Shown: positions 1 to 21,069 of the stretch, in pieces
Position numbering within the stretch: position 1 is the stretch's first letter
Layout: every line of letters begins with the position of its first letter
From: a virus
DNA: 31,257 nucleotides
Reading direction: 5' to 3' (one strand)
Virus record (IMG/VR): IMGVR_UViG_3300010354_019952
Coordinates: 1-31,257 of that record
Made by a program: the position numbers and the translations under genes
The notes under the pieces: model-generated
Told to the model about the DNA's origin: nothing
The model's input: the letters and a program-made list of their open reading frames with translations, nothing else
Databases searched by the model: none

Positions 1-849
1 AGGGTCAAACCTTTCCAAGTTGTTAGAGACTGGAACGACAAGCGATTTGCTCTATTCAATGGACAACAAAAAGCCGAAGCCCGCGCAAGGTGTACTGGCG
101 ATTTTTGCTGGCAAGTCGACATCGACGAGGTCGTTCATGAAGACGATTACGTTAAGGTTCTTGACTTGGTCAAGAAATTTCCTAAAGGCGTCGATCTCAT
201 CGCTCTGCCGGTGGTTGAATATTGGGGTGGTCCAGAAAAGGTCCGTGTCGACGTCAATCCATGGAAATGGCGCTTGAGTCGTAATAACCCCAACATCACT
301 CATGGTTTGCCAAAATCTCATCGTAGATTTGACGAACAAGGCACTATGTACTCACTAGGCTCCGATGGCGATGATTACATCTACAAGGACACGCTCGAAA
401 ATGTTCCTTGTGTTACCTTTTATACAAATGAAGTCGACGCTGCCCGCAGAGCAGCGATGTCAGGAAATAAGGATGCTCTTGCAGCTTATGAAAACTGGTT
501 AAATCACGTCGTTGATCAACTACCAGGAGTTTATCATTACTCGTGGTATGACCTTGAGCGTAAGATTCATACATACAAAGGTTTTTGGTCGCGTCATTGG
601 GCATCTCTCTACAATCAAGTACAGGAAGATGTTCCTGACAACAATAAGTTCTTTGACAAAAAATGGTCGGATGTGACCGACGAAGAAATTAAAGAGTTAG
701 CTGTAAAAATGAAAAACGAGTTGGGTGGATGGATCTTCCATCATCGCGTTGACTTTACCAAACCAACTCCGTGGCTGAAGATGAAAAAGTCAGAGCCGGC
801 CGTTATGTCCATTAAAGGACAGGTATTTGTTTCGGAGAAGTCTGAGTGA
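1..849 (+). CDS. Glycosyltransferase family 2-like protein (5' end outside window)
   Basis: The reading frame is open from the first base, so the protein starts upstream; 282 codons plus stop are visible. Near the visible N-terminus there is a GT-A pattern: an alanine/arginine-rich helix (QKAEARARCTGDF) leading into CWQVDIDEVVHEDD. The DxD-like DIDE would bind the metal and nucleotide sugar. The later VYHYSWYDLERKI segment resembles the region following the acceptor site in GT2 enzymes found in phage and LPS clusters. No membrane segment is visible, so it should act in the cytoplasm. An internal ATG at 166 would remove the DxD motif and is not the real start. The gene overlaps the next one by four bases (GTGA), which suggests translational coupling. 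Donor and acceptor cannot be told. Fold assignment is fairly sure; activity is inferred. Confidence 0.75.
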   Translation, partial: RVKPFQVVRDWNDKRFALFNGQQKAEARARCTGDFCWQVDIDEVVHEDDYVKVLDLVKKFPKGVDLIALPVVEYWGGPEKVRVDVNPWKWRLSRNNPNITHGLPKSHRRFDEQGTMYSLGSDGDDYIYKDTLENVPCVTFYTNEVDAARRAAMSGNKDALAAYENWLNHVVDQLPGVYHYSWYDLERKIHTYKGFWSRHWASLYNQVQEDVPDNNKFFDKKWSDVTDEEIKELAVKMKNELGGWIFHHRVDFTKPTPWLKMKKSEPAVMSIKGQVFVSEKSE

Positions 850-1583
850 AAAATAGGTTTGTCTTTGTTATTCCGTACTACAATGCGGAAGAAGACATAG
901 CAAAAACCCTCCACTCCATGATGGCTCAAAGCTATGATGAGTGGAGGGCTATTGTTATCGATGACATGTCAACAGACAGTGGACCAAGCCTCGTCAAAAA
1001 AGTAGTCGAAGGTTCCATTCACCGTGACAAGTTTACTTTGGTCAGCAGAAATGAAAAACACGGCGAGGTTCGTAACACGCTAGTTTCTCTCGATTCTATA
1101 GAAGACGACGAAGTAGTGTGTCGCTTGGACGGTGGGGATTGGCTCCTGGAAAATGACCTGCTTTGGGTTTTAAACGAAACATACAAAAATCCTTCGCAAG
1201 CAGTTGCTTGGACAGCGCACAGATGGAGTTATACTCCTAGAAATATTTCCGGACCTCTTAACCTGCAGCCAGGACAAACTGTTTATCAACACCCTTGGGT
1301 TTCAAGTCATCTAAAGACGTTTCGGGCAGGACAGCTTCGTAAAGTTCCTAAAGCTAATTTTTTCACAGATTCAGGCGAATACATCATGATTGCATGTGAT
1401 CAAGCTATATTCCTCCCCATGATGCATCTGTCTCATCTAGAAGGAAAAAAGTTGAACTTTGTCCCTGTCGTAGGTTATCACTACAACATTGATCTTGGAA
1501 ACAAGAATTTGTTTACTTCAAATCGGGCCATCAACCAAAAGATGTCTGCCGAAATGATTCGTGAAAGAGGGTTTTTAGAGTGA
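846..1583 (+). CDS. Glycosyltransferase family 2
   Basis: 245 residues with a GT2 (GT-A fold) N-terminus: FVFVIPYYNAEEDIAKTL is the opening strand and helix, followed by AIVIDDMSTDSG, the nucleotide-binding DD-x-S/T-x-D element. CRLDGGDWL at about residue 95 occupies the metal-binding DxD position, here D-G-G-D. The start is GTG at 846 inside the upstream stop (GTGA overlap), and the stop overlaps the next GTG start in the same way. The C-terminal half (HPWVSSHLKTF, FTDSGEYIMIACDQA) fits acceptor-binding regions of small GT2 enzymes. No membrane helix is seen, so it probably adds a sugar to a cytosolic or membrane-face acceptor. Donor specificity is unknown. Confidence 0.85.
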   Translation: MKNRFVFVIPYYNAEEDIAKTLHSMMAQSYDEWRAIVIDDMSTDSGPSLVKKVVEGSIHRDKFTLVSRNEKHGEVRNTLVSLDSIEDDEVVCRLDGGDWLLENDLLWVLNETYKNPSQAVAWTAHRWSYTPRNISGPLNLQPGQTVYQHPWVSSHLKTFRAGQLRKVPKANFFTDSGEYIMIACDQAIFLPMMHLSHLEGKKLNFVPVVGYHYNIDLGNKNLFTSNRAINQKMSAEMIRERGFLE

Positions 1584-2470
1584 GGGTTCTTTTAGACAAC
1601 GTTAATGTCAATTCTTCTTCTGGTCCAAACTCTTTTGGGAGAAGACTCATGATTGAATCTCAAAAGATTGGTCATGTTATGGGCCCCGATGTGTTTGATC
1701 CAGACGTTCAATTGTCTTTCATAATGGCTACTCAAAAGAAAGCCAAGATAGCGTTGAGACTAGATGGAATCTACTTTAATTCTCGACAAGATTGGGAAAA
1801 ATTAAACGCGCCGATTAAACACTCTTTCGATCAGGCCGAGTTAGTCGTATATCAATCTAAATTCAATCAAAAATTGACGGAAAGATATTTTGGAGCAGCA
1901 AAAAAGTCAGTGGTCATTAACAATGGTACATGTCTGCAGACTGTAGGCGTTATTCCAAAGCTCAACCATCCAGAGCTCGATAAATACTCGGAGGTGTGGT
2001 CCTGTGCCTCTTCTTGGCGTCCACATAAAAGGCTTAAGGAAAACATAGGATATTTTTTGGAAAAATCTCCTGAGGATTCTTGTCTCGTTGTAGCCGGCGA
2101 AAATCCGGACCATGTAGTTAAACACCCTCGAATACTTTATACTGGTCAGCTTTCTTGGGAACAATGTGTAGCTTTATACAAAAGATCGAGTACTTTTCTA
2201 CATCTAGCTTTTCTTGACCACTGTCCAAACGTTGTCGTAGACGCTCGAGCTGCTGGTTGCAAATTAGTAGTAGCTTCGAGTGGTGGAACTAAAGAAATAG
2301 CTGGTCCAAATTCTGTGGTGGTTGAAGATCTTGATTGGGACTTGTCACCTCTCGACCTTTATTCACCGCCACCTTTAGATTATTCTAAAGAAAGAACGAA
2401 CAAAATTATTTCCGACGTAGATATCGTCAATGTGAGTCGTCGATACATTGAAGCCTTGGAGTCGATATGA
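1580..2470 (+). CDS. Glycosyltransferase, GT4/GT1-like (GT-B fold)
   Basis: 296 residues, short for a GT4 enzyme (usually 350-400). The first part (MRVLLDNVNVNSSSGPNSFG) has the glycine-containing loop of the acceptor domain. The C-terminal donor domain runs from about residue 135, with CASSWRPHKRLKENI followed by a strand and AGENPD. The usual E-x7-E donor motif is replaced by D-x7-D (LDHCPNVVVDARAAG, about D213 and D221) followed by the typical ASSGGTKEI loop. The GTG start overlaps the previous stop. Two neighbouring glycosyltransferases upstream suggest stepwise assembly of one short glycan. The family is clear; sugar and acceptor are unknown. Confidence 0.8.
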   Translation: MRVLLDNVNVNSSSGPNSFGRRLMIESQKIGHVMGPDVFDPDVQLSFIMATQKKAKIALRLDGIYFNSRQDWEKLNAPIKHSFDQAELVVYQSKFNQKLTERYFGAAKKSVVINNGTCLQTVGVIPKLNHPELDKYSEVWSCASSWRPHKRLKENIGYFLEKSPEDSCLVVAGENPDHVVKHPRILYTGQLSWEQCVALYKRSSTFLHLAFLDHCPNVVVDARAAGCKLVVASSGGTKEIAGPNSVVVEDLDWDLSPLDLYSPPPLDYSKERTNKIISDVDIVNVSRRYIEALESI

Positions 2471-2823
2471 AAAATATACATGAGTCTGTCAGTAAGTTGT
2501 TGTCTCTTAAGTTAGAAAAATACAAAAGTGAAAAGTTGAGTTCATCGACGTGTACAGCAATTTATCAAGACATATTCGAAACGTTCGTTGATCTATTTCA
2601 AGAATCGAAGATCGAAGTTAGCAACGAAGCGATGAACATGCTTTGTCAGATGTACTACGACGCCGTCACGATTAATGGCAATCAAGAGCTAGATCCCAAT
2701 ATCTTTTCTCAAAGAGCTAGCGTAAAAAATATCGAAACAAAAGAATTGGCGCTTTTAGCAAGTCTTTTTTCCAATACACCTTTTGCTTCTCCATTTATCT
2801 TTGAAATAAAAAGAAGGTCATGA
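2467..2823 (+). CDS. Small conserved-looking protein of unknown function
   Basis: 118 residues, predicted mostly helical, with no motif, signal peptide or membrane segment that I recognise. The first half is charged and helix-rich (LLSLKLEKYKSEKLSS). The second half carries NGNQELDPNIFSQRA and ends in a basic tail (EIKRRS). The ATG start overlaps the preceding stop by four bases (ATGA), and the gene ends just before the cupin gene, so it is co-translated with the sugar genes. It could be an adaptor for the glycosyltransferases or an unrelated phage protein; the sequence does not decide. Tight packing and strand consistency are the reasons to believe it is expressed. Confidence 0.7.
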   Translation: MKNIHESVSKLLSLKLEKYKSEKLSSSTCTAIYQDIFETFVDLFQESKIEVSNEAMNMLCQMYYDAVTINGNQELDPNIFSQRASVKNIETKELALLASLFSNTPFASPFIFEIKRRS

Positions 2824-2825
2824 CC

Positions 2826-3158
2826 ATGAAGAAGGTTGAAAAGGGGTGGGGTTATGAACTGTGGATCCACAATGACGAAAAGTATTGTGGAAAACTTTTG
2901 TTTTTTTCTAAAGGTAAAAAATGTAGCCTTCACTATCACAAGTTGAAACATGAAACTTTTTATGTTCAGACTGGCTCTCTTAAGTGCACGTTCATAGATG
3001 GTGATAAAATAGAAAACGTAGTGTTGTCTCCTGGCGACGTTAAAGAAATACATCCTGGTTTGATTCATCAGATGGAAGCAATCGAAGACACAGTTATGTT
3101 CGAGTTTTCAACGCAACATTTTGACGAAGACAGTTACAGATTACAAAAGGGTGATTGA
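2826..3158 (+). CDS. Cupin, mannose-6-phosphate isomerase-like, in heptose module
   Basis: 110 residues from ATG 2826. That start is preferred because AGAAGG lies eight bases upstream; ATG 2820, overlapping the previous stop, is the alternative. The sequence is a single small cupin barrel related to the C-terminal domain of type II phosphomannose isomerase/GDP-mannose pyrophosphorylase: the WGYELW opening, SLHYHKLKHETFYV with metal ligands H36, H38 and E43, then LSPGDVKEIHPGLIH with H81. It ends in FEFSTQHFDEDSYR, typical of that subgroup. It sits immediately upstream of the GT9, HldD and HldE genes, so a sugar-phosphate isomerase or epimerase role in heptose supply is plausible but unproven. 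A structural or regulatory cupin remains possible. Confidence 0.8.
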   Translation: MKKVEKGWGYELWIHNDEKYCGKLLFFSKGKKCSLHYHKLKHETFYVQTGSLKCTFIDGDKIENVVLSPGDVKEIHPGLIHQMEAIEDTVMFEFSTQHFDEDSYRLQKGD

Positions 3159-4003
3159 TGGGCCTCGGTGGATATTTAATGTGGACAGCTGTTGCTCGAG
3201 AAATTTGCAAAGCAGCCAACGTTCAAAAAGTTTTTCCATTTGAACAACATGGAATGTTTGTCAAAACCATTAAAACGTCTATTTTTGACAATAATCCTTT
3301 TATTCAACAGTCATACGAAAGTGATGTAGTTGCATTTCCGATGCAACTTAACAATCCAAAAACAAATTATTGTAAGCAAGACACGGTGCAAAAAGCTGTG
3401 CATCGTCATGACAAACATATCATAGAACAAGTTTGCGAATTTTATGGTATTAATAGTCCTAAGCTGAAGTGCGAACTATATTTCACACCCCATGAAGAAA
3501 CGAGCGTTTCTTCTCTTCTACAACAACAAGAATTAACAAACAACTTTATTGTTTTTGAACCACAAACCAAGCCTGGATATACTGTTAACAAAAAATATCC
3601 TTTAGAAAAATGGCAAAGGGTCGTTGATTATCTCGTATCGACGGGAGAAACGATAGTACAAGTAGGCGCCCCAACTCTCGATCAAAAGTTAAAGAATGTA
3701 ATTGATTTGACCGGAAAGACTAGTTTTCGAGAAGCAGCCTGCATTATTTCACGGTCAAAGCTTTTTGTTTCTTCCGAAGGTGGTTTAATGCACGCTGCGA
3801 ATGCGGTCGGTACAAGAAGTGTAATTTTGTTTACTGGATTTATTCATCCTACAATGACAGGATATCCAGAAAACAAGAATATTTGGATTGGCAAAGATCA
3901 TGGTCCTTGTGGTATGAAATTATTATGTAATCAATGCGAAAAAAATGCGCTAGAACATGATCCTGAGGAACTAATTCAATCCATAAAGGAAATATTAAAA
4001 TGA
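3158..4003 (+). CDS. GT9-family glycosyltransferase, probable ADP-heptose heptosyltransferase
   Basis: 281 residues from ATG 3158, which shares its first base with the previous stop (TGATG); TTG 3155 is an alternative. The N-terminus MGLGGYLMWTA matches the glycine loop that opens GT9 enzymes (usual form K-G-I-G-D). The donor domain has VFEPQTKPGYTVNKKYP, EKWQRVVDYL, IVQVGAP, and the family signature SSEGGLMHAANAVGTRSVI followed by LFTG. GT9 members such as WaaC and WaaF transfer heptose from ADP-heptose to the LPS inner core on the cytoplasmic face. The genes directly downstream make ADP-heptose, which strongly supports that donor. At 281 residues it is shorter than bacterial WaaC/WaaF (about 320-350). 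The acceptor is unknown. Confidence 0.85.
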   Translation: MGLGGYLMWTAVAREICKAANVQKVFPFEQHGMFVKTIKTSIFDNNPFIQQSYESDVVAFPMQLNNPKTNYCKQDTVQKAVHRHDKHIIEQVCEFYGINSPKLKCELYFTPHEETSVSSLLQQQELTNNFIVFEPQTKPGYTVNKKYPLEKWQRVVDYLVSTGETIVQVGAPTLDQKLKNVIDLTGKTSFREAACIISRSKLFVSSEGGLMHAANAVGTRSVILFTGFIHPTMTGYPENKNIWIGKDHGPCGMKLLCNQCEKNALEHDPEELIQSIKEILK

Positions 4004-4905
4004 AAGTCTTAGTAACAGGTGGCCTTGGTTTCGTCGGGAGCAATATAATAAAAGCTCTCAATAATCGAGGCGCTGACGTTTACGTTATTGACGACTTAAA
4101 CGAAAACAATGAATACATCTTAAAGACTATTAATTTTGTCGACTTAATAAATAAAGAAAAATTTCATGATGATATTATTAGAGAACTAGGTGTCGATGTA
4201 GTTTTCCACCAAGGAGCAATTACAGATACGACGTTTCAAGACGAAAGTGAAATGACTCGAGTCAACCTAGGACTTAGTTCTAACATCTTTAGACAATGCG
4301 AAAATAACAATGTTAGATTAATCTATGCCTCGTCGGCTGCTGTTTATGGACTAGGTTACAACGGATTTAAAGAAGATCCGGTTTGTGAATCTCCTCTTAA
4401 CATTTATGGAGAATCAAAATTAAAGTTTGACAATTTTGTTAGAAGTCAAACTGCTAAAAATCAAGTTGTTGGATTAAGGTATTTTAACGTTTACGGTCAA
4501 AACGAAAATCACAAAACGAAGATGGCCTCTCCCTTAAATCAATTTTTTCGTCAAGCCAAGAAGGATGGAGAAATTAGGGTTTTTGAAGGTAGCGAGAATT
4601 TTCATAGAGACTTTATATGTGTAGAAGATGTTGTCGACGTAAACATGTTCTTTTTAGAAAATCAAAGCATATCAGGTATTTTTAATTGTGGAACGGGGAA
4701 TACGGCGACGTTTCAAGATGCTGCGAATGTTGTTTCGACAGTTCTAGAAATTCCTATCAAGACAATACCGTTTCCAGATATTTTAAAAGGAAAATATCAA
4801 GCATATACGAAATCTGAAGTTTCAAAGTTGCGATCAGCTGGATATAAAAAATCTTTTTCTAACTTCAAAATTGCTGCGACGTCTTATGTGAAGTCGATGC
4901 TATGA
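4000..4905 (+). CDS. hldD: ADP-L-glycero-D-manno-heptose 6-epimerase
   Basis: 301 residues; an extended SDR with NAD(P)-binding TGGLGFVGSN (G7, G10, G13) and catalytic Y136-x3-K140 (YGESKLKFDNF). Family-specific HldD stretches are plain: YASSAAVYG, VGLRYFNVYGQ, FEGSENFHRDF, NCGTGNTATFQDAANVV, and the C-terminal IPFPDILKGKYQAYT. The enzyme converts ADP-D-glycero- to ADP-L-glycero-D-manno-heptose, the last step before LPS heptosyl transfer. Length is close to E. coli HldD (310). It starts with ATGA overlapping the GT9 gene and overlaps the adenylyltransferase gene by four bases. The match is close enough that I consider HldD the right name rather than a generic epimerase. Confidence 0.95.
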   Translation: MKVLVTGGLGFVGSNIIKALNNRGADVYVIDDLNENNEYILKTINFVDLINKEKFHDDIIRELGVDVVFHQGAITDTTFQDESEMTRVNLGLSSNIFRQCENNNVRLIYASSAAVYGLGYNGFKEDPVCESPLNIYGESKLKFDNFVRSQTAKNQVVGLRYFNVYGQNENHKTKMASPLNQFFRQAKKDGEIRVFEGSENFHRDFICVEDVVDVNMFFLENQSISGIFNCGTGNTATFQDAANVVSTVLEIPIKTIPFPDILKGKYQAYTKSEVSKLRSAGYKKSFSNFKIAATSYVKSML

Positions 4906-5324
4906 ATAACAACGTAATTTTTACTAACGGGTGTTTCGATATTCTGCACGTAGGGCACGTTCAACTTCTCAAAGAATGTAAAAAACTCGCCGGAGATAAC
5001 GGTAAAGTTATAGTTGGTTTAAACAGCGACGCCAGTGTAAAAAAACTAAAAGGCGAATCCCGACCTGTCAACGATCAAGATTCTAGAAAGCTGCTCCTAG
5101 AATCTTTAAGATTCGTCGATGAAGTTATTATCTTCGAAGAAGAAACACCAGAACTGTTAATAGAAAAAATACGCCCAGACATACTCGTGAAAGGTGGCGA
5201 TTATTCCATAGACCAAATTGTAGGAAAACAATACACAAAAAAAGTTGTAGTATTTCCGTACGTCGATGGAAAATCAACAACAAACACAATTGAAAAACTC
5301 TCAAAGAGTTTTAGTCATCGGTGA
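4902..5324 (+). CDS. hldE2: D-beta-D-heptose 1-phosphate adenylyltransferase (HldE C-domain, free-standing)
   Basis: 140 residues of the cytidylyltransferase-like nucleotidyltransferase fold. It has TNGCFDILHVGH (H16-x2-H19), then VIVGLNSDASVKKLKGESRP and ILVKGGDYSIDQIVG, ending in DGKSTTNTIEKL. Each block is diagnostic of the C-terminal half of bifunctional HldE/RfaE, which joins ATP and heptose 1-phosphate into ADP-heptose. In E. coli this domain follows the kinase domain in one polypeptide; here it is a separate gene placed before the kinase gene. It overlaps hldD by four bases and the kinase gene by 59 bases in a different frame. Assignment is very secure. Confidence 0.95.
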   Translation: MNNNVIFTNGCFDILHVGHVQLLKECKKLAGDNGKVIVGLNSDASVKKLKGESRPVNDQDSRKLLLESLRFVDEVIIFEEETPELLIEKIRPDILVKGGDYSIDQIVGKQYTKKVVVFPYVDGKSTTNTIEKLSKSFSHR

Positions 5325-6054
5325 TAGTTGCGAAGACGTATATCATTACGGGACTTGCGAAAGATTGAGTCCCGAAGCCCCGGTTCCAATTTTGAGGTTG
5401 ACGAAAATTGAAACCAAACCTGGTATGTGTCTTAACGTTGCTAAAAACCTAGAAGGATTAGGTTTATCTGTCGACGTTATTACTCAAAGCGAGATTATTA
5501 AGAAGAATAGATACGTTGAAGAAAAACGATTGGTTCATTTGTTAAGAATGGACGAAGAACAAGCTAAGGTCACTAAACTTGATTTAAAAGACGTTGAAGA
5601 CACTTTGAGAAATTACGACTATAGCGCCATCGTTATATCCGATTACAATAAGGGTTTTTTAACTCATTCATCGTGTGAAGAATTGGTTAATCTTGTTGAC
5701 AACAAAATTCCTATCTTCGTCGATAGTAAAAAACAAGATTTATCTTGTTTTTCGAATTGCGTTATTAAAATTAACAAAGTAGAAAATGACGCAGTTAAAT
5801 CTCTACCTTCAAAGTGCAATTTGATAGTTACTCTCGGCGAAGACGGCGCCGTTTGGAACGACAGACATTATCCAACAATCAAGTCGAAGTTGTACGATGT
5901 CTGTGGAGCTGGTGATACTTTTCTAGCAGGCTTAACATTTGAATTTCTAAGAACGTCATCTTTAAACGATGCAATTTTATTTGCCAATAAATGTGCTAGT
6001 ATTTCAGTTACTCATTTTGGAAACTTTATTCTGACACAAGATTATGCAACCTGA
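5266..6054 (+). CDS. hldE1: D-glycero-beta-D-manno-heptose-7-phosphate kinase (HldE N-domain, free-standing)
   Basis: 262 residues, PfkB/ribokinase fold. The signature ERLSPEAPVPILRLTKIE is specific to HldE kinases. It is followed by GMCLNVAKNLEGLGL, VISDYNKGFL and the C-terminal anion-hole/catalytic motif CGAGDTF with D217. The enzyme phosphorylates heptose 7-phosphate at C1. At 262 residues it is clearly shorter than the usual kinase domain (about 310-320), with shortening in the middle lid/substrate region and before GAGD. ATG 5266 lies 59 bases inside the upstream gene; TTG 5290 is another possible start and neither has a strong ribosome site. It overlaps the HAD gene by 11 bases. Function is confident, start less so. 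Confidence 0.9.
   Translation: MENQQQTQLKNSQRVLVIGDSCEDVYHYGTCERLSPEAPVPILRLTKIETKPGMCLNVAKNLEGLGLSVDVITQSEIIKKNRYVEEKRLVHLLRMDEEQAKVTKLDLKDVEDTLRNYDYSAIVISDYNKGFLTHSSCEELVNLVDNKIPIFVDSKKQDLSCFSNCVIKINKVENDAVKSLPSKCNLIVTLGEDGAVWNDRHYPTIKSKLYDVCGAGDTFLAGLTFEFLRTSSLNDAILFANKCASISVTHFGNFILTQDYAT
5294..5312. repeat. Perfect 8-bp inverted repeat in the hldE2/hldE1 overlap
   Basis: AAAACTCT and AGAGTTTT are exact reverse complements separated by the three bases CAA. In RNA this would be a tight hairpin lying just downstream of the kinase start codon and within the last codons of the adenylyltransferase. It does not resemble a terminator because no T-run follows. It could affect coupling between the two reading frames, or be incidental to the coding sequence. 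Confidence 0.4.
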
Positions 6055-6670
6055 TGGCGTTATCTTCGACTTTGATGGCGTGCTATGTAACTCTGACATA
6101 GTTCATAAAGACGCCTTTGTGTTATCGTTAGAATCTTTGGGTTATTCTTGGTGCGACAACAAAGAAGAGACTTACACACGCATAAAAAACGAAAAGACTT
6201 CTTTTAAACTAAAAACATTTGTAGAATTACAACTGATAAAACTAGAAGACGTCGAAAAACTAAATTCTATAAAGCAAGATTTTACGCAAAACCTAATAAC
6301 TTCTTTGTCTATGGACAATAGAGTGATTCAAGCCATTCAAATCTTAAAAAGTAATCATTTAAAAATTGGTATCGCTTCAAATGCAAACAAACGATCTATC
6401 GTATCTTATCTTAAAGCAAATTCAGCCTTAGAGTTATTCGATGTGATAGTATCGAGCGACGACGTTGCCAAGAAGACTAAGCCATTGCCAGATGTCTACA
6501 TTAGAACGTTAAGTTTGTTGAACTTAAACGCCATCAACGTACTTGCGTTTGAAGATAGTGAACAAGGATTTACGGCGGCGAAAGAGGCTGGAATCGAACG
6601 CGTTTATCTGTGTGATTACACCAGTCTTTGTGGCGTTTTAGAAAAAGTTTGTAATTTGAAAGAAGATTGA
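6044..6670 (+). CDS. HAD-superfamily phosphatase (beta-phosphoglucomutase-like), candidate heptose bisphosphatase
   Basis: 208 residues with HAD motif I FDFDGVLCNSD (nucleophile D9, acid/base D11), motif II IGIASNAN, motif III lysine in KKTKPLPDVY, and motif IV AFEDSEQGFTAAKEAGI. This is the beta-phosphoglucomutase/phosphatase subgroup with a helical cap after motif I. It is not the GmhB type, which carries a DRDGT-like motif and a zinc-binding cysteine cluster. Its place directly after the heptose kinase and adenylyltransferase suggests it removes the C7 phosphate from heptose 1,7-bisphosphate, a non-orthologous stand-in for GmhB. Fold and catalytic residues are visible; the substrate is inferred from context. 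It overlaps the kinase gene by 11 bases and the next gene by four (TTGA). Confidence 0.85.
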   Translation: MQPDGVIFDFDGVLCNSDIVHKDAFVLSLESLGYSWCDNKEETYTRIKNEKTSFKLKTFVELQLIKLEDVEKLNSIKQDFTQNLITSLSMDNRVIQAIQILKSNHLKIGIASNANKRSIVSYLKANSALELFDVIVSSDDVAKKTKPLPDVYIRTLSLLNLNAINVLAFEDSEQGFTAAKEAGIERVYLCDYTSLCGVLEKVCNLKED

Positions 6671-7386
6671 ATAATAATCTAATGATGAAAATTACGCACA
6701 TCAAGAATAAGTTAGCAGATTTAGACTTTCCGCTTGAAAATCTTTCTTTAGGCGATTTTGACGCCATTGGCGAATTTACCGCAAAGAAAAATAGAAATCC
6801 AGACAGCGAACTCTATAAAAAGGTCGGTTGTTTTTATCGACCTAATTACGAAAGAGGTTTGTTGATTTATTCGTTGATTAGAAAATTTAAGATTCAGTCT
6901 TATCTTGAAATCGGTTTCGGTCGAGGGTATTCTTCAATTTGCGCTGCGAAAGCCATGGATGATGATGGGATAAACGGCAAGATAACCACCATCGACCCAA
7001 ATTTTGACGTAAACCACATACAAAATTTAACAAAAGTTTTTCCTAGAAGCTGGTTAGAAAAAATTGACTTTTTGCGTGGTACTTCTGCCGAGGTCTTACC
7101 GACACTTGGTAATTTTGACATGATTTATATCGATGGCGACCACACTTACGATGCTGTAAAAAGCGATTGGGAACTAAGCAAAGAGAAGTGGAATAAGGTT
7201 CTGCTTTTTGACGATTATCATTTGCCTACCCAAGAAGAAGATGCTAATATTCAATGTGCAAAAGTAATCGATCAAATCGAAGGTTACGATAAAGAACTTG
7301 TGATCATGGATCGTAGAATATTTTTAGACGATCGTGGACTAAAGGATGAAGACATCGATTATGGTCAGGTAGTCATGGTGAAGTGA
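6667..7386 (+). CDS. Class I SAM-dependent methyltransferase (Methyltransf_24-like)
   Basis: 239 residues from TTG 6667, which overlaps the previous stop; ATG 6682 or 6685 would give 234 or 233. The SAM-binding core is clear: SYLEIGFGRGYSS is motif I, TTIDPNF the acidic residue after strand 2, then LRGTSAEVLP and FDMIYIDGDHTYDAVKSDW, with VLLFDDYHLP as strand 5. The IDGDHTYD block marks the Methyltransf_24 group common in glycan and surface-polysaccharide clusters. Likely role: O- or N-methylation of a sugar or of the completed glycan. There is a two-base gap to the next glycosyltransferase. Substrate is unknown. Confidence 0.85.
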   Translation: MNNNLMMKITHIKNKLADLDFPLENLSLGDFDAIGEFTAKKNRNPDSELYKKVGCFYRPNYERGLLIYSLIRKFKIQSYLEIGFGRGYSSICAAKAMDDDGINGKITTIDPNFDVNHIQNLTKVFPRSWLEKIDFLRGTSAEVLPTLGNFDMIYIDGDHTYDAVKSDWELSKEKWNKVLLFDDYHLPTQEEDANIQCAKVIDQIEGYDKELVIMDRRIFLDDRGLKDEDIDYGQVVMVK

Positions 7387-7387
7387 T

Positions 7388-8302
7388 ATGAAGATTTATT
7401 TTAATCGCAGACCTACTCCTGGACCTTGGGGCGGTGGATCCAAAGTATTGTTTGCAATTATAGATGAATGTCTTTTAAGAAATCATGAAGTTTATTTCGA
7501 AGAAGACATTCATAGACCAATTGATTTTGATATCTTGTTTTGTATCGACCCAAGACCAAGCCAATTTGTTAATTACGAGCAACTTTTAAATCGACGTCTA
7601 AAATCGCCAACTACAAAATTGATTCAACGAATCGGCGATTTGGGTACACATGGAAAACCCGAACTGTTCGCGTTTTTAAAAGAAATAACTAAATTTCCAG
7701 ATGTATTAGTTTTCCCAAGTCAGTGGGCAAAGGATTATTTAAATCCCCCCAACGAAAAATGCGTAATTATAAAAAACGCTCCATTAAAGCAATTTTTGGT
7801 AGCTCGTAAAAATAAAACATTTTCTAAAAAGTTAGAAGTAGTATCTCATCATTGGTCTAATAACTCTTTAAAGGGTTTCGATACGTACCAAAAATTAGAC
7901 GAGTATTGTAAAAATACCAACAAAGCTAATTTTACGTTTATCGGTAGAAAACCAGACGACGTAGTTTTAAGTAACTATATTTCGCCACAAGACGTAGATG
8001 GCTTAGTGTCTTTTTTGCCCAAGCATGATGTTTATATTACTGCTTCGAAACAAGAAGCTGGGGCTAACCATGTTTTAGAAGCGCTGGCTTTGGGATTGCC
8101 TGTTCTTTATCATAAGGACGGTGGTAGCATCAACGAGTATTGCAAAGAATTTGGAATAGAATATAGCGACTTTGGCGAGCTTATAGACATAATTGAAAAT
8201 AGAACTGAAGAATTACAGGCCATCGCGAATAGAATGACATATCAAAGGTCTTCTAAAGACATGGCAAGAGAATACGTAGATCTATTCGAGGCTAAACCAT
8301 GA
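7388..8302 (+). CDS. Glycosyltransferase, GT4-like
   Basis: 304 residues, GT-B fold. N-terminal MKIYFNRRPTPGPWGGGSK carries the glycine-rich acceptor-domain loop. The donor domain begins near VVSHHWSNNSLKGFDTY, with NFTFIGRKPDD and the GT4 E-x7-E motif in KQEAGANHVLEALALG, followed by LPVLYHKDGGSINEYC. Although short for the family, both halves are represented. It sits between a methyltransferase and a deacetylase, fitting a glycan assembly and tailoring block, and overlaps the deacetylase gene by four bases (ATGA). Donor sugar is unknown. Confidence 0.85.
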   Translation: MKIYFNRRPTPGPWGGGSKVLFAIIDECLLRNHEVYFEEDIHRPIDFDILFCIDPRPSQFVNYEQLLNRRLKSPTTKLIQRIGDLGTHGKPELFAFLKEITKFPDVLVFPSQWAKDYLNPPNEKCVIIKNAPLKQFLVARKNKTFSKKLEVVSHHWSNNSLKGFDTYQKLDEYCKNTNKANFTFIGRKPDDVVLSNYISPQDVDGLVSFLPKHDVYITASKQEAGANHVLEALALGLPVLYHKDGGSINEYCKEFGIEYSDFGELIDIIENRTEELQAIANRMTYQRSSKDMAREYVDLFEAKP

Positions 8303-9003
8303 AAATTAATGTTAGCATAGACGATGTGTCTCCTCATCAATTCTCTTCGATAAAGGTACTGGATAGATGCTTTGAATTAATTCAAACGTTTCCTGATATT
8401 AAATTTACGCTGTTCGTTCCCGTGGCTTATTGGCGAACCGTAAAACCGACTACAACGACTAAGGAGCCGCTAAGACTCGACGCGTTTCCAGACTTTTGTA
8501 AAACTATAAGAGAATTACCACAACGAAATTTTGAAATTTGTTATCATGGTTTATTTCACGGTATTCCTGGAAAAAGTGACAACGATGAATTTCAGTCTAT
8601 TACTAAAGAACAAGCTATAGAAAAATTTTTAGCAATGTTTGAGATTGTTGAGCGAGCTGGTTTAAACGATATTTTTAAACCTGTTTTTAGACCACCCGCC
8701 TGGAGAATGTCGCCGCACGCGATTGAAGCCGCAAAAGAAGTTGGAATTAAAGTGTTGGCATTATCTCCCAAAGATTATGCTAAACAAACATATTGTGGCG
8801 CCGAGGAAACCTTTGAAAAGGTTGTTTATTTTAATTGCGTACCGCCATTCGAACCACTAAACGTTTATCCTGTTAATGAGATAGTTTATCACGCGTGCGA
8901 ATGGGATAAAAACTATTTGAGCGCCGATCTTACAAACGAATTAACAAATTGGCTAAAGACACAAACCAACGTTGAGTTTAAGTTTATAGAAGAATTAATT
9001 TAA
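8299..9003 (+). CDS. Polysaccharide deacetylase-like (NodB superfamily)
   Basis: 234 residues. The N-terminal INVSIDDVSPHQ supplies the catalytic and metal Asp pair (D8, D9); CYHGLFHG supplies H83-x3-H87, the metal-binding histidines of carbohydrate esterase family 4-type enzymes; and FRPPAWRMSPHAIEAA matches the R-x-P-P/W motif that follows. The final HACEWDKNYL contributes another histidine. There is no signal peptide, so unlike most secreted deacetylases it would work in the cytoplasm, probably on a nucleotide sugar or lipid-linked sugar made by the surrounding genes. ATGA overlap with the glycosyltransferase upstream; one base separates it from the next gene. Fold confident, substrate inferred. 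Confidence 0.8.
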   Translation: MKINVSIDDVSPHQFSSIKVLDRCFELIQTFPDIKFTLFVPVAYWRTVKPTTTTKEPLRLDAFPDFCKTIRELPQRNFEICYHGLFHGIPGKSDNDEFQSITKEQAIEKFLAMFEIVERAGLNDIFKPVFRPPAWRMSPHAIEAAKEVGIKVLALSPKDYAKQTYCGAEETFEKVVYFNCVPPFEPLNVYPVNEIVYHACEWDKNYLSADLTNELTNWLKTQTNVEFKFIEELI

Positions 9004-9004
9004 T

Positions 9005-9640
9005 ATGGGAAAATCCGACGAATTTGTTTTTGCAGAATATCGTAAGTTATTGAATGATTCCTTACCAGTTTCTTTGAATTCAGTAGCTTTTTTGGGATTT
9101 TCGCAAGAAAATAATTTTACAAGAAACTTTAATGTTTCAACGCGGCATTTTTATGATTTGTCTTTAGGCAACTGGAATATAAATGACGCGTGGAAACTGG
9201 AACAAAATTACGATTTTATCGTATGCACTCGTTGCGCTTATTTTAGTAAGAATCCAAAAGATTTTATTCAAAGGTGTAAAGACAACTTAACGATAGGTGG
9301 ACAAGCTCTAATTGATTGGGGACTCGGCGACCACTGGAGATTCAAAGATTATAAGGTAGGTTGGGTTAGAAACGGCGAACACGAATTTGCTTATAACCAA
9401 AATAATTTTTTGTATTCTTGTTTTTGGAATGAAGAACTAACAAATCACTCTGAAGTCCAGGGTTTTTGGAACGCGGTAAAAAACAGTTCGACATTCGGCT
9501 ACAAAGACACCGACGTTTTAAATGACGTCGTTAGAAGGGAAGTTCCAGAATTAGTAGAATACGATTGTAAAAAAATTGCCACAAAATTTCTTTGGCCAGA
9601 ATCACCGCAACTGTATATAATGACGCTTATAGAAAAATGA
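9005..9640 (+). CDS. Probable SAM-dependent methyltransferase (degenerate motif I)
   Basis: 211 residues with the outline of a class I methyltransferase. SVAFLGFSQENNF occupies motif I but lacks the usual G-x-G pattern. YDFIVCTRCAYFSKNPKDF matches the strand 4 and post-motif region of type 11 enzymes, and TIGGQALIDWGLGDHW matches the strand 5 loop (consensus L-x-P-G-G). The region after it is rich in aromatic residues (WVRNGEHEFAYNQNNFLYSC). Position between the deacetylase and an FkbM-type methyltransferase supports sugar modification. It may bind SAM weakly or have lost activity. It overlaps the next gene by four bases. Confidence 0.6.
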   Translation: MGKSDEFVFAEYRKLLNDSLPVSLNSVAFLGFSQENNFTRNFNVSTRHFYDLSLGNWNINDAWKLEQNYDFIVCTRCAYFSKNPKDFIQRCKDNLTIGGQALIDWGLGDHWRFKDYKVGWVRNGEHEFAYNQNNFLYSCFWNEELTNHSEVQGFWNAVKNSSTFGYKDTDVLNDVVRREVPELVEYDCKKIATKFLWPESPQLYIMTLIEK

Positions 9641-10242
9641 CTTTACGAAGTTACAAGAACATATACGATGCGTGCGTCCAATTCTCACAAGACAAATCCA
9701 TAAAAACAATAGTAGACTTAGGCGCCCGCCACGGTGAAGGCTACGAGCTTTTTGGAATTCATCATCCTGATGCATCTTATACTTTTGTAGAACCTTCAAA
9801 TAGATGCATACCAAACATTAATCAACTTATTAGAAAATATCCTGAAGCCAAGCTGACGCTAATAGATGGCGTTTTAGGAACGAGCAATGGCGAAACTAGG
9901 TTCTATCAACTTGAAAATGATAACGATCAATCAGGTAATTTATTTTCTAATCGCAATGGTCAATATGGGCGTTCCTCTGAGTGCGTTGTAAAAACTTACG
10001 ATTATCGGCCTATTTTTACTCATATTGATTTTGTTAAGTGCAATATCGAAGGAGCAGAATATCAATTGATTGAAGAGGGGTTCTTCGATATTGTGAACTC
10101 CTTTGTCATGGAAGTGCACAACGTTCATGTACCTAACAAAAACTATCGTAATGCCGTTTCGGCGTTGAGCGATAAGTTTGATTTGACCGTGTGGGGCGAT
10201 GTCAATTACAAATATTGTTTCATAAACGGACAAAAGAAATGA
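9637..10242 (+). CDS. FkbM-family methyltransferase
   Basis: 201 residues from ATG 9637, which overlaps the previous stop (ATGA). The frame is open further upstream to a TTG at 9592, but that would overlap the neighbour by 49 bases and adds nothing family-like. Motif I is TIVDLGARHGEG, then YTFVEPSN is the acidic strand 2 end, and IDFVKCNIEGAEYQLIEEG is the diagnostic FkbM block (usual form DfiKiDvEGaE). FkbM-type enzymes O-methylate sugars or polyketides, and in LPS/O-antigen clusters they commonly methylate a glycosyl residue. Third methyltransferase-type gene within 3.6 kb. Substrate unknown. Confidence 0.85.
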   Translation: MTLRSYKNIYDACVQFSQDKSIKTIVDLGARHGEGYELFGIHHPDASYTFVEPSNRCIPNINQLIRKYPEAKLTLIDGVLGTSNGETRFYQLENDNDQSGNLFSNRNGQYGRSSECVVKTYDYRPIFTHIDFVKCNIEGAEYQLIEEGFFDIVNSFVMEVHNVHVPNKNYRNAVSALSDKFDLTVWGDVNYKYCFINGQKK

Positions 10243-11177
10243 TCAACGCGTTTTATATTGAAGACATGACGTCGTTACGTTATGCTATTCCTTTTATAAA
10301 AACGTCGAAGAGGTTGTTAGATAGCAATATTTTGTTGATTTATAACGATTCTGTTAATTCTCACAAGTATAACTCAATTAGAAATCATTATGAAAAGCTG
10401 TTGAAAATTTGTGAAGAGAATGGAGTCGAGTGTATAAATCAAAAAGAATTTAAAAAAAATAGCGTAAAAGTACGTAATCTTTTTTGTGTAGAGAATACTT
10501 CTAAAGATATTAATTGCGAAAACTATTATTCTTTTCAACATGGATTTGATTGGGCAGTACTTTATAAAAATAAAAGAAACGCAACGTATATAGTTTCTGA
10601 AGATTACTTTAAGTCTTCTATAGAAGCTTTGGGATTAAAAGCTGTTGTGTCGCCCATGCCTGTCGTATTTTGGGATTGGGCTTATTACGTTGAAAAAATT
10701 AAATCTCAATCTTTAGATTTAAAAACTAAGACGGCGACGATGTTTTATCCCGAAGAGGGAAGTAAAGATCTTTTCAAGAAGATACACGAAAAATTAAAGG
10801 ATTCGGGTTATAAAATTTACATTAAGCAACGCAAAAAAAACCAATTAGTTCCTGGCGAATTTAGCAACATTTTTTATGATGATCTTTGGTATCCAACCGA
10901 GTCGATATTACTACCGCTAATTAGCGATTTTTCTGTAGGTTTTGGAACGTCGGCTTATACTGACTTAATTCATCTAAATAGAAACTTCGTCGACCTATGC
11001 ATACCAGACTATTCTAAGAAATATTACAAGTCACAAGTTAGTAACTTAATATCTATAACAAACGATTTTTACGAAAATTTTTGTAAACTAGGTTTTAGCG
11101 AGATTACTTTAGAAGAAAAGCTAACAGACCCTTGTGACTTACAAAAAATTAAAGATTTTTTGATTCAGCTATTTTAG
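10239..11177 (+). CDS. Uncharacterised protein, possible GT-B / CDP-glycerol transferase-like enzyme
   Basis: 312 residues from ATG 10239, overlapping the FkbM stop by four bases; a GTG further upstream is in frame but less likely. I cannot place it firmly. The layout looks like two Rossmann domains: an N-terminal half with repeated beta/alpha units and YYSFQHGFDWAVLY, and a C-terminal half with ATMFYPEEGSKDLF and IYIKQRKKN. It ends with PTESILLPLISDFSVGFGTSAYTDLI, which resembles the donor-site end of CDP-glycerol glycerophosphotransferases and related GT-B enzymes. No membrane helix. Context, last in a tight block of tailoring genes, favours a transferase. Treat as hypothetical with a hint of GT-B fold. 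Confidence 0.65.
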   Translation: MINAFYIEDMTSLRYAIPFIKTSKRLLDSNILLIYNDSVNSHKYNSIRNHYEKLLKICEENGVECINQKEFKKNSVKVRNLFCVENTSKDINCENYYSFQHGFDWAVLYKNKRNATYIVSEDYFKSSIEALGLKAVVSPMPVVFWDWAYYVEKIKSQSLDLKTKTATMFYPEEGSKDLFKKIHEKLKDSGYKIYIKQRKKNQLVPGEFSNIFYDDLWYPTESILLPLISDFSVGFGTSAYTDLIHLNRNFVDLCIPDYSKKYYKSQVSNLISITNDFYENFCKLGFSEITLEEKLTDPCDLQKIKDFLIQLF

Positions 11178-11255
11178 TTTTTGCTGGCTTTAGAAATACA
11201 TCAATTAACACTATTAAAAATTGAATTATTAATATGGGGGGTAGTGTAGCATACG

Positions 11256-12392
11256 ATGAAAATACCTTTTAATATTCCTGTCATTACTGGTAATGAACTA
11301 CAGTATGTTTCTGAAAATATAAAAAACAAAAATCTTTCTGGCGGCGACGGAAAGTATTCCACGCTTTGTAAAAATAAAATTTCAAATTTATTTGAACATG
11401 CTGTAAAAGTTTTTATGACGTCTTCCTGTACCGATGCCCTGGAGGCTTCTTCTATAATACTAGGTCTTAAGGCGGGCGATGAAGTCATAATGCCTAGCTT
11501 TACTTTCGTTACGACGGCCACTTCTTTTGCCCTTAGAGGAATCAATATAAGATTTGTCGATATCGATAGAAAAACCCTAAACATAGATCCAACAAAAATA
11601 GAAGAAGCGATTACTAAAAAAACAAAAGCCATAGTGTGCGTGCATTACGCTGGTATTGCATGCGACATGGATAAAATATTGAAGATAGCAAAAGACAATA
11701 ATCTGTTGGTCATAGAAGACGCAGCGCAATCAATGTTTTCTTATTATAAAGGAAAACACTTAGGTGGATTTGGCGATGTTTCAACTTTTAGTTATCACGA
11801 TACAAAAAACTTACATTGCGGTGAAGGTGGTAGTCTTATCATAAACAATGAAGCTTTTTTTGATAAGTCACACATAACTATCGATAAAGGAACGAATAGA
11901 AGACAATTTCTAGACGGAAATTGTGAAAAATACATGTGGTTCGACTTAGGTTCTAGTTTCGTTATGAGCGACTTAAGTGCTGCTTTTCTTTTTAGTCAAT
12001 TAGAACGTGGTTTGGATATCACTAACAATAGAAAGCGTTTGTGGAAAAGATACTACGAACTTCTTTCTGGTAACGAAAGTAATTTCGAACTACCTTATGT
12101 GCCTGAATATTGCGACCACAATGCTCACATTTTTAGAATTAGATTAAACGATGAAAAAAGAAGAGTAGAACTAATGAAGTTTCTTCAAACTAAAGGAATA
12201 AGCACTACTTTTCATTTCGTTCCCTTGCATTCTTCTCCGGGAGGAAAAAAATTCGGTAAATTTATAGGTAAAGACGTCAACACCACGTCCGAAAGCGAAA
12301 GAATAGTTAGGCTACCATTATTCGATTTGCTTACCGACGAACAAGTAGACTATGTTTGCGAAAATATTGTGAGGTTTTATAATGAGCGTTAA
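11256..12392 (+). CDS. wecE: dTDP-4-amino-4,6-dideoxygalactose transaminase (WecE/RffA-like)
   Basis: 378 residues, DegT/DnrJ/EryC1/StrS family, PLP-dependent, with the Schiff-base lysine K184 in FSYHDTKNLHCGEGG. Similarity to E. coli WecE is specific through the protein: IPFNIPVITGNELQYV, TSSCTDALE, GDEVIMPSFTFVTTATSF, IVCVHYAGIACDMD, GTNRRQF, and C-terminal TTFHFVPLHSSPGG with SERIVRLPLF. WecE aminates dTDP-4-keto-6-deoxyglucose to dTDP-4-amino-4,6-dideoxygalactose, the precursor of Fuc4NAc in enterobacterial common antigen and O-antigens. RmlA and RmlB, needed for its substrate, are not in the window. It is preceded by the largest gap here (78 bases), so a new transcription unit may begin; G6 at 11236-11241 is rather far upstream as a ribosome site. 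Confidence 0.9.
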   Translation: MKIPFNIPVITGNELQYVSENIKNKNLSGGDGKYSTLCKNKISNLFEHAVKVFMTSSCTDALEASSIILGLKAGDEVIMPSFTFVTTATSFALRGINIRFVDIDRKTLNIDPTKIEEAITKKTKAIVCVHYAGIACDMDKILKIAKDNNLLVIEDAAQSMFSYYKGKHLGGFGDVSTFSYHDTKNLHCGEGGSLIINNEAFFDKSHITIDKGTNRRQFLDGNCEKYMWFDLGSSFVMSDLSAAFLFSQLERGLDITNNRKRLWKRYYELLSGNESNFELPYVPEYCDHNAHIFRIRLNDEKRRVELMKFLQTKGISTTFHFVPLHSSPGGKKFGKFIGKDVNTTSESERIVRLPLFDLLTDEQVDYVCENIVRFYNER

Positions 12393-13185
12393 GATATGTT
12401 TGCCAGTTTCTCATCATTTTGATTCTAAAGAAAAAGTAAAAAAACTTAGAGATCTGGATCTTTATGACTTTTTAGAAGTGAGACCGAATAAGATCGATTA
12501 TGAAGAAGAAATAGAAAAACAAGTAGCATTTCATGCTGATAATATTCAACCGATACATAACTTAAAAGATGCGGATTTTAAGTTTGTAGAAAAGATTGCA
12601 AAAAATAAAAAAAATTTAGAAATAATTAGTTTTCATTGCGCTTGGGCATGCGACGAAATACTTGAAACAGGAATAGTTGCATATCCTGCTGGAAAAATTT
12701 GCACGCGCGATGAAATGTATCTTAACGCAGAAAAAAACTTAAAGATCATAAAAAATATACTAGGTAGTAATGTTTTGATTGCTATCGAAAACAACAACTA
12801 TTATCCTACTCCTGCGTATGAAAATGTTTGTGAACCTTCTTTTTTAAGAGACGTCGTTTTTAATAACAACATTAACTTTTTATTCGATAATGCCCATGCT
12901 AGGGTATCTTCACACAATTTAGGCGTAGAATATTTAGATTATAAAAATCAGTTGCCATTAGAAAAATTGGTTCAAATTCAATTTTGTCAACCTTCTATAC
13001 CTGAAAAAGCTGAAGAGATGGCGTTGGACGTACATGACGTACCAAACGAAAAAAATGTAACTGAAGTTCTAGAGACGTCTTTGAAGCACAAAGTTCAGTA
13101 TATAACGCCTGAATACTATAAAGACTTCGATAAACTTGTAGAGTTCTTAAAAACTTTAAGATCAAGTCAAAAAAAACTAGTGTAA
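12382..13185 (+). CDS. DUF692/MNIO-like TIM-barrel protein
   Basis: 267 residues; the pattern is that of DUF692, now called MNIO (multinuclear non-heme iron-dependent oxidative enzymes), or a close xylose-isomerase-like TIM barrel. Visible candidate metal ligands: H85 (SFHCAW), E136 (IENNNYY), D169 and H172 (LFDNAHAR, where DUF692 has LDvNN), D216 and H218 (DVHD), E244 (TPEYY). The HNLGVEYLDY stretch matches the DUF692 N-h-G-x-D block, but its usual following H-x-A-G is Q200 here (QFCQPS). Known MNIOs modify cysteines or other residues of ribosomal peptides with a partner protein; I see no precursor or partner. In this sugar setting a sugar isomerase role is the alternative. GAGG eight bases upstream supports the ATG, which overlaps wecE by 11 bases. 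Confidence 0.65.
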   Translation: MSVKICLPVSHHFDSKEKVKKLRDLDLYDFLEVRPNKIDYEEEIEKQVAFHADNIQPIHNLKDADFKFVEKIAKNKKNLEIISFHCAWACDEILETGIVAYPAGKICTRDEMYLNAEKNLKIIKNILGSNVLIAIENNNYYPTPAYENVCEPSFLRDVVFNNNINFLFDNAHARVSSHNLGVEYLDYKNQLPLEKLVQIQFCQPSIPEKAEEMALDVHDVPNEKNVTEVLETSLKHKVQYITPEYYKDFDKLVEFLKTLRSSQKKLV

Positions 13186-13192
13186 AAAATAA

Positions 13193-13222
13193 GGTTTTTT
13201 AAATATACTCTTTTAAAAAACC
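13193..13222. repeat. 11-bp perfect inverted repeat between DUF692-like and SDR genes
   Basis: GGTTTTTTAAA and TTTAAAAAACC are exact reverse complements around an eight-base loop (TATACTCT). It lies in the 53-base gap after the MNIO-like gene and ends nine bases before the GGAG ribosome site of the SDR gene. The stem is mostly A/T pairs closed by two G/C pairs, and no T-run follows the right arm. A weak terminator or processing site separating two sugar modules is possible, as is an operator. The left arm and loop also contain TTAAATATACT, loosely like a T4-type late promoter (TATAAATA), but I do not call it one. Confidence 0.45.
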
Positions 13223-13238
13223 AACTGGAGTTATAGTC

Positions 13239-13964
13239 ATGTCAATTAACGTTTCTTTAGAAAATAAGACTATATTAGTTACAGGCGCCCAAGGACAAAT
13301 AGGTTCAGACTTGTGTAAATTCTTAGAAGAAAAGAATGCAAAAGTAATAAGGGCAGATGTTAATAATTTTGATGTGACATCAGCAGATGATACGCGTGAT
13401 TTTTTTAGAGAATGTTTTTCTAAATTCGGTAACTTAGATGTCCTTATAAATAACGCAGGAATTCCTACTTTTGACTATTTTACTGAAAGAAAAAAAGAAG
13501 ACTTTTTAAAAGTTTTAGAAGTTAACGTGTGGGGTACCTTTAACTGTATTCGAAATTACGTAAATAATTTCGAAGAAAAAAAGCAAAAAACAGGATCTAT
13601 AATAAACGTAGGATCTATATACGGTTCTGTCAGTTGTGATCCAAGAATATACGCAGATATTGCAAATATGAGCTCAGAGGTTTATGGGGCTTCTAAGGCA
13701 GGTGTCATACAAATGACTAAACATTTTGCAGTACTTCTTGCCGAAAAAGGAATTAGAGTAAATTGTGTTTCGCCGGGCGGCGTGTTTAACGCAAAAAATC
13801 CCCAGCCTGACTATTTTGTAAAAAACTATAATGAAAAATGTCCAATGAAAAGAATGGCAAATACGTCGGATCTTTTAGGGGCATTTTTATTCTTTAGTAG
13901 CGATGCATCGAATTATGTAACGGGACAAAATTTGATAGTCGATGGAGGCTTTTCAGCATGGTGA
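13239..13964 (+). CDS. Short-chain dehydrogenase/reductase (PtmA-like position)
   Basis: 241 residues, classical SDR. Cofactor motif TGAQGQIG near residue 16, VLINNAG for the adenine-side loop, catalytic Ser in INVGSIYG, and Tyr/Lys in YGASKAG, followed by VNCVSPGGV and the C-terminal GQNLIVDGGFSAW typical of the family. It is followed by NeuB, an acetyltransferase, an aminotransferase and a cytidylyltransferase. That grouping resembles legionaminic/flagellin-glycan loci, where a similar SDR (PtmA) acts on a sugar precursor. A GGAG ribosome site lies upstream of the ATG. The SDR fold is certain; the sugar substrate is inferred. Confidence 0.85.
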   Translation: MSINVSLENKTILVTGAQGQIGSDLCKFLEEKNAKVIRADVNNFDVTSADDTRDFFRECFSKFGNLDVLINNAGIPTFDYFTERKKEDFLKVLEVNVWGTFNCIRNYVNNFEEKKQKTGSIINVGSIYGSVSCDPRIYADIANMSSEVYGASKAGVIQMTKHFAVLLAEKGIRVNCVSPGGVFNAKNPQPDYFVKNYNEKCPMKRMANTSDLLGAFLFFSSDASNYVTGQNLIVDGGFSAW

Positions 13965-14809: not shown

Positions 14810-14852
14810 TGGTTTGTTGTTTTATATTTCGTTAATCTTTGTGGATCTTTAA

Positions 14853-15242
14853 ATGAAAAAATATAAACTAATAAAAAATACCGAAGAATATTGGGAGTTT
14901 ATAAGAAAATTAAGAAATTTAGACTCAGTTAAAAAGGGCTTCATAAAGCAAGAAAAAATTACGAAAAAAGAACAACAAGAATACATGAAAGAAAATGGGC
15001 ATAATTTTTGGATATGCCTGGAAGATCTTGAACCCGTAGGTTACGTAGGAATTATTGATGATGATATTCGCGTTGCTACTCACCCCGATCATCAAAAAAA
15101 AGGCGTAGGAACTTTTATGATAAACGAAATTATGAAAATATATCCTAATGCCTATGCTAAAATAAAGATAGAAAACGACGCAAGTATTAAGCTTTTTGAA
15201 CGTTGCGGATTCGTAAAAAAATATTTTATATTAGAAAAATAG
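14853..15242 (+). CDS. GNAT-family N-acetyltransferase
   Basis: 129 residues, a small GNAT. The acetyl-CoA pyrophosphate-binding motif A is RVATHPDHQKKGVGTFMINEI (QKKGVG fits Q/R-x-x-G-x-G/A), preceded by the PVGYVGIIDDD strands and followed by ENDASIKLFERCGFVKKY, the usual C-terminal motif B. In nonulosonate loci such enzymes (PseH, LegH-type) acetylate an amino sugar intermediate. Its position between NeuB and an aminotransferase fits acetylation of an amine installed by that aminotransferase. It begins 43 bases after the NeuB stop. Confidence 0.85.
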   Translation: MKKYKLIKNTEEYWEFIRKLRNLDSVKKGFIKQEKITKKEQQEYMKENGHNFWICLEDLEPVGYVGIIDDDIRVATHPDHQKKGVGTFMINEIMKIYPNAYAKIKIENDASIKLFERCGFVKKYFILEK

Positions 15243-15259
15243 CAATCAAGGAAATAGAC

Positions 15260-16567: not shown

Positions 16568-16590
16568 ATTTAAAATTAAGGCGGTGCAAA

Positions 16591-17322: not shown

Positions 17323-17333
17323 GAGAAAAAAGA

Positions 17334-19773: not shown

Positions 19774-19820
19774 AAAAAGATTACAAACTAAAAAAAATTA
19801 TTACGATATAGCAAAATAAG

Positions 19821-21068: not shown

Positions 21069-21069
21069 T

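Follow-up and report, generated by a model that had tools for sequence, protein, structure and literature searches.

Can a phage supply its own ADP-heptose and, if so, which glycan would receive the sugar? This question is raised by six adjacent genes in an IMG/VR virus record of 31 kb, called here the window (the whole stretch of DNA that was analysed). An earlier note on this DNA had proposed a near-complete ADP-heptose pathway ending in its own heptosyltransferase, and had regarded it as unusual for a phage. The profile, PHROG, tree and structure analyses presented here are all computational.

Phage context and layout of the glycan cassette

The six genes were all found as overlapping ORFs on the plus strand (2820-6670), and encode a cupin, a GT9 glycosyltransferase, HldD, an HldE-type adenylyltransferase, a short HldE-type kinase and a HAD hydrolase. 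They are part of a glycan cassette that takes up the first ~17 kb of the window. Upstream of them (166-2823, plus strand) there are an ORF cut by the contig start, a GT2, a GT4 and a small protein. The first ORF (window 1-849) is open at the contig start and its visible part matched no Pfam family; in the relatives L028 and L035 a conserved protein of ~640 aa is found at this place. Downstream (6667-18269, plus strand), the remaining variable cassette encodes methyltransferases, a GT4, a DUF2334 protein, DegT and class III aminotransferases, an SDR, NeuB, a GNAT and a CTP-transferase, and it ends at a conserved UDP-sugar dehydrogenase. The window contains no tRNA and is AT-rich along its whole length.

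Within this downstream part, positions 11256-17322 resemble a nonulosonic-acid route and could form a second sugar branch (DegT aminotransferase, MbnB/TglH/ChrH-type TIM-barrel protein, SDR, NeuB-like synthase, GNAT, class III aminotransferase and CTP-transferase), in which the NeuB-like synthase scores well under the NeuB equivalog cut-offs. The protein encoded at 12382-13185 belongs to the MNIO (MbnB/TglH/ChrH) family of RiPP-modifying oxidases and lies inside this sugar cluster.

The phage backbone extends from ~17.3 kb onward, starting with the UDP-sugar dehydrogenase and followed (18904-29869, plus strand) by a PD-(D/E)XK nuclease, two GT4, a late sigma-like factor and the baseplate genes gp25 and gp6. 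The gp25-like gene falls in a PHROG of baseplate wedge proteins, and both baseplate genes are on the same strand as the heptose genes, which, together with the virus-contig record, bears out the earlier view that this is phage DNA. The gp6-like protein matched only six INPHARED records, with ~30% identity (Flavobacterium phages, a Microcystis phage and one uncultured phage), and no Prochlorococcus or Synechococcus cyanophage of that collection; hence, the phage looks T4-like and is not a described Prochlorococcus or Synechococcus phage. The overall arrangement is common to five further contigs, where the cassette varies around the fixed module, which indicates that it is not due to chance.

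Epimerase, adenylyltransferase and kinase

HldD, the ADP-glyceromanno-heptose 6-epimerase (4000-4905, plus strand), reached 315.5 bits with TIGR02197, over the equivalog cut-off of 274.6, which is also passed by the HldD of three relatives. Its best PDB relative is E. coli HldD 1eq2 (3.9e-71), and the alignment to 1eq2/2x6t places the Tyr of the YxxxK motif at Y136 and the Lys of the HK..MAS block at K172 of the window protein; the catalytic pair of the E. coli enzyme is Y140 and K178.

The two HldE activities are encoded by separate genes. The candidate D,D-heptose-1-phosphate adenylyltransferase (4902-5324, plus strand; phrog_7878) is of the HldE C-terminal type and obtained 166.5 bits with TIGR02199, under the cut-off of 181.5 and with the next unrelated family at 63 bits, so it is probably best described as HldE2-like only. 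The putative heptose-7-phosphate kinase (5266-6054, plus strand; PfkB family, 262 aa, phrog_8133) is of the HldE N-terminal type and ~50 aa shorter than bacterial HldE1. Its match to TIGR02198 (1.2e-42, 146 bits) is under the cut-off of 345, and likewise it may be called HldE1-like only. Its best PDB relative is HldA 4e84 (1.1e-30), to which it was aligned, followed by a ribokinase (5.5e-11). It retains the SPEAPVP block and the GAGD motif; the latter, which carries the catalytic Asp, is invariant in the 12 rows of the kinase alignment, and SPEAPVP is present in most of them. In other viruses, both HldE domains are fused in one protein of 394-400 aa that scores ~300 bits against full HldE.

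Profile searches and, for HldD and the kinase, the best PDB relatives thus agree with the three family identities given in the earlier note, and the predicted kinase, adenylyltransferase and epimerase steps of the ADP-heptose route are supported at the level of protein families.

A mobile block under purifying selection

Compared with the nearest relative (G001, L028), positions 2820-6050 mostly show 80-99% nucleotide identity, with a dip to 60-68% within the GT9 gene, whereas the flanks show 51-61%. The borders of the block coincide with the start of the cupin gene and the end of the kinase gene. Values of dN/dS are 0.025 for the cupin, 0.12 for the GT9, 0.08 for HldD, 0.09 for the adenylyltransferase and 0.10 for the kinase; outside the block synonymous sites are saturated with respect to the same relative, and the HAD proteins are only 42% identical. 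The sharp borders and the low dN/dS indicate that the cupin, GT9, HldD, HldE2 and kinase genes move between phages as a unit that is kept by selection. Positions 2820-6050 are therefore a discrete mobile cassette of five genes under purifying selection, not stuffer DNA, and the HAD gene is outside it. The locus had previously been placed at 2826-6670; its location holds, but its first ORF begins at 2820, and the kinase (~6050), not the HAD, marks the end of the exchanging unit.

The GT9 glycosyltransferase and its link with HldD

The product of the second gene (3155-4003, plus strand; 282 aa) is a heptosyltransferase-like glycosyltransferase of the GT9 family, as had been proposed, since its match to PF01075 (2.2e-14, 53.8 bits) is well over the gathering score of 22. 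Its AF2 model is of moderate quality (pLDDT 76), and the top Foldseek matches are GT9 enzymes, WaaF, WaaC and TibC; a sequence search of the PDB gave no match at E<0.01. No relative of this subfamily appeared in the scan of bacterial genomes, nor in sequenced cyanophages, and close GT9 companions of the module came solely from uncultured viruses. The protein begins with MGLGG and does not have the usual first strand. By eye, its N-terminal motif reads GLGGYL and the WaaC-type aspartate is not apparent; in WaaC, this residue is D13, the catalytic base. Given this start, the mechanism may differ from that of WaaC. Transfer of heptose from ADP-heptose is the activity expected for this protein from its family.

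A scan of IMG/VR with the GT9 profile gave 21 loci of the subfamily, in every one of which the GT9 gene is located directly before hldD or before the HldE2 and kinase genes. In the GT9 tree (24 rows, 21 of them different; HldD present in 8 and absent in 16), one branch separates the loci with HldD from those without it, with no exception, which means a single change. This branch has a support of 97/91 and appears in 98% of the bootstrap trees (0 of 500 shuffles). In the tree of kinase plus adenylyltransferase, which contains two long-branch rows, the presence of HldD changes about five times, three of them on well-supported branches, and the kinase group of the window holds both states (G001, G002 and G007 with HldD; G005 and G006 without it). 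As the GT9 clades match the HldD state while the kinase tree shows repeated changes, HldD and the type of GT9 appear to be replaced together. Only three of the HldD switches are independent and well supported, and with this number a sign test cannot reach significance.

The simplest reading of these data is a donor switch, where the GT9 of the HldD-linked clade, to which the window protein belongs, would use ADP-L,D-heptose and the other clade ADP-D,D-heptose. The alignment columns distinguishing the two clades (146 K/R, 212, 230, 235 and 236) are all in the C-terminal half, which is the half that binds the nucleotide sugar in GT9 enzymes. Their placement on the donor side is only suggestive, as the chance of five out of five by position alone is ~0.05. 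Moreover, linked exchange of the neighbouring GT9 and HldD genes could give part of the co-variation. The two clades are a natural pair predicted to differ in the heptose epimer used.

Candidates for the isomerase and phosphatase steps

The claim of a near-complete pathway holds for the kinase, adenylyltransferase and epimerase, but not for the other two steps. The HAD protein (6044-6670, plus strand), adjacent to the exchanging block, was considered as GmhB and rejected, since its best families are HAD-IA and beta-PGM, both in the window and in relatives. It is a candidate bisphosphate phosphatase of the HAD-IA (beta-PGM-like) type. GmhB searches gave no match with TIGR00213 in five relatives and none with TIGR01656 in the window; GmhB-like proteins are present in 3-4 of 50 related contigs. 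Regarding GmhA, a SIS_2 search found none in the window or in 11 related records. Matches to TIGR00441 occurred in 5 of 50 related contigs (up to 267 kb), all far below the cut-off and four of them being SIS proteins, although these contigs are fragments and GmhA could lie beyond them. Two of the five pathway steps are consequently left without a canonical enzyme.

The proteins annotated as phosphoheptose isomerase in P-SSM2 and P-TIM68 were discarded as isomerases, because both are short HAD-type proteins that carry a DxDGT motif, not SIS proteins. The copy of P-SSM2 is EcbF-BcbF-like, and the annotation error has spread through cyanophage records (L005:12747-13091, L003:10535-10873). Another observation concerns four phages without HldD (L141-L144), which carry a SIS protein and, in two cases, a dehydroquinate-synthase-like protein close by (by eye). 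Cyclases of this kind can use sedoheptulose 7-phosphate.

The first gene of the block (2820-3158, plus strand) encodes a single-domain metal-binding cupin of 112 aa (PF07883, 2e-8; phrog_7851, 1.2e-46), a candidate sugar-phosphate isomerase whose His-x-His/Glu/His motif is invariant in 32 homologues. Its AF2 model (pLDDT 96.9) matches many cupins, and the whole-length matches include the single-domain phosphomannose isomerases of Thermococcus 7zvm and 7zvy (TM 0.77-0.84). Isomerisation of sedoheptulose 7-phosphate is the one-carbon-longer analogue of the phosphomannose isomerase reaction. When 54 adenylyltransferase loci of IMG/VR were surveyed with 2.5 kb on either side, the kinase was found in 51, the cupin in 47, HldD in 35 and GT9 in 9, with the cupin adjoining 22 of 23 fused and 25 of 31 split modules. 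The rarity of GmhA and the presence of this phosphomannose-isomerase-like cupin in 47 of 54 modules make it a candidate replacement isomerase.

It is tempting to go further and propose that the cupin replaces GmhA as a non-orthologous isomerase of sedoheptulose 7-phosphate, and that the phages thus bring a self-standing ADP-heptose route to cells that have none, adding a host-foreign sugar to their own glycan. In line with this, most picocyanobacterial genomes examined (113 of 151) give no GmhA match. This proposal is tentative and, on balance, unlikely. The structural likeness among cupins in general counts against it, in sequence the protein is linked only weakly to isomerases, and its weak matches extend to other cupin families as well. 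Furthermore, cupin relatives in genomes assigned to Binatota, Deltaproteobacteria and Planctomycetota mostly have no heptose genes in the flanks that were fetched. If the cupin were the missing isomerase, these phages would equip their hosts with a sugar pathway that is foreign to them.

Possible function of the cassette

With a probability of about 0.6, positions 2820-6050 are a mobile cassette that makes ADP-heptose, and the co-inherited GT9 adds heptose from it to a larger glycan encoded by the phage. Heptose 7-phosphate would come from host GmhA or from the cupin; the kinase would convert it into heptose 1,7-bisphosphate, and the 7-phosphate would be removed by a phosphatase of the host or by the neighbouring HAD. 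The adenylyltransferase would then produce ADP-D,D-heptose and HldD would epimerise it to ADP-L,D-heptose, from which the GT9 would move L,D-heptose to a cytoplasmic acceptor within that larger glycan. Where HldD is absent, the GT9 of the second clade would be expected to take ADP-D,D-heptose directly. Among the window genes that were scanned, neither a flippase nor a polymerase could be recognised. This favours an acceptor in the cytoplasm, such as a TibC-like virion protein or LPS core, over the export of a newly made polymer. The most likely target is a virion protein or some other acceptor located in the cytoplasm, host LPS core being the main alternative.

That alternative, in which the cassette rebuilds the LPS core or O-antigen of the host during infection with the help of host GmhA and GmhB, for example against superinfection or re-adsorption, is possible but doubtful. 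It is in line with GT9 being classically the family of LPS heptosyltransferases, with the supply of GmhA and GmhB that hosts with heptose in their LPS would offer, and with a cassette that varies around a fixed module, as surface diversification predicts. The hosts of related cyanophages argue in the opposite direction, although this evidence concerns relatives and not the window phage itself. The LPS of Synechococcus WH8102 contains neither heptose nor Kdo (PMC4515613), yet the WH8102 phages Sf-CH5 and Sf-FS3 carry the module, which in Sf-FS3 adjoins neck and head-closure genes; there, heptose cannot simply top up a native LPS sugar. In addition, of 151 picocyanobacterial genomes, taken from the family of a Prochlorococcus single-cell genome and of unstated completeness, 120 have no match to HldE2 and 113 have none to GmhA.

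The recruitment of a PfkB kinase, a nucleotidyltransferase and an epimerase for a non-heptose nucleotide sugar would explain why the kinase and the adenylyltransferase stay under the curated cut-offs and why the GT9 does not present the canonical N-terminal features. Nevertheless, it is improbable, as HldD exceeds its equivalog cut-off and three independent enzymes each match their own heptose-pathway family best by a wide margin. Whether the LPS genes of cyanophages function or are stuffer DNA was left open in previous work (PMC3037559). For this block, functionless packaging filler is hardly credible: dN/dS of 0.025-0.12 argues strongly against it, and gene order and motifs are conserved over many phages. 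Finally, an influence on ADP-heptose-sensing responses, which had also been suggested, is speculation, and the link with ALPK1 and innate sensing was dropped, as none of the papers listed by the literature search was relevant.

Comparison with known systems

The adenylyltransferase, kinase, cupin and epimerase of the window correspond, taken as a set, to T4-GC 304, 305, 307 and 308, which are among seven LPS genes that co-occur in three cyanophages (Sullivan et al. 2010, PMC3037559). The cyanophage module (P-SSM2, S-SM2, S-SSM7) belongs to the same PHROG families (7878, 8133, 7851 and 540), and the four families are also found together on the maps of P-SSM2, S-SM2 and P-TIM68. The whole set is present in ~35 sequenced phage records, mostly of cyanophages, and at least 531 IMG/VR stretches encode a relative of the adenylyltransferase, so the claim of rarity fails for these four genes and is at most partly right in view of the close GT9 companion. 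Unlike the window, the cyanophage module has no GT9 of this subfamily, and its epimerase is shorter, ~34-36% identical to the window HldD and under the HldD cut-off.

Other records contain parts of the system. An HldE2-like adenylyltransferase, in some cases beside a glycosyltransferase, is encoded in 63 Streptomyces phage records of INPHARED; to our knowledge, Streptomyces hosts have no LPS. The module or its cupin also appears in contigs from assemblies labelled Prochlorococcus, Euryarchaeota, Planctomycetaceae and 'Bifidobacterium breve' (L149, L154, L161, L163, L178 and L182); these contigs resemble phage DNA that was binned wrongly, or come from odd bins by their look.

With respect to the GmhA-HldE-GmhB-HldD pathway of E. 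coli, the HldE1, HldE2 and HldD activities would be expected to act in the same order, but in the window HldE is split into two overlapping genes with a shortened kinase, and a cupin and a beta-PGM-like HAD are present instead of GmhA and GmhB. The GT9 has its fold in common with the LPS enzymes WaaC and WaaF and with the protein O-heptosyltransferase TibC, its top structural matches; it differs from them in being shorter, in its N-terminal start and in forming a subfamily of its own. What is new here with respect to these systems is the subfamily of GT9 companions, a mobile unit with clear borders and evidence of selection, and the coupling between HldD and GT9. The loosely annotated 'LPS cluster' of marine T4-like phages becomes a specific and testable pathway.
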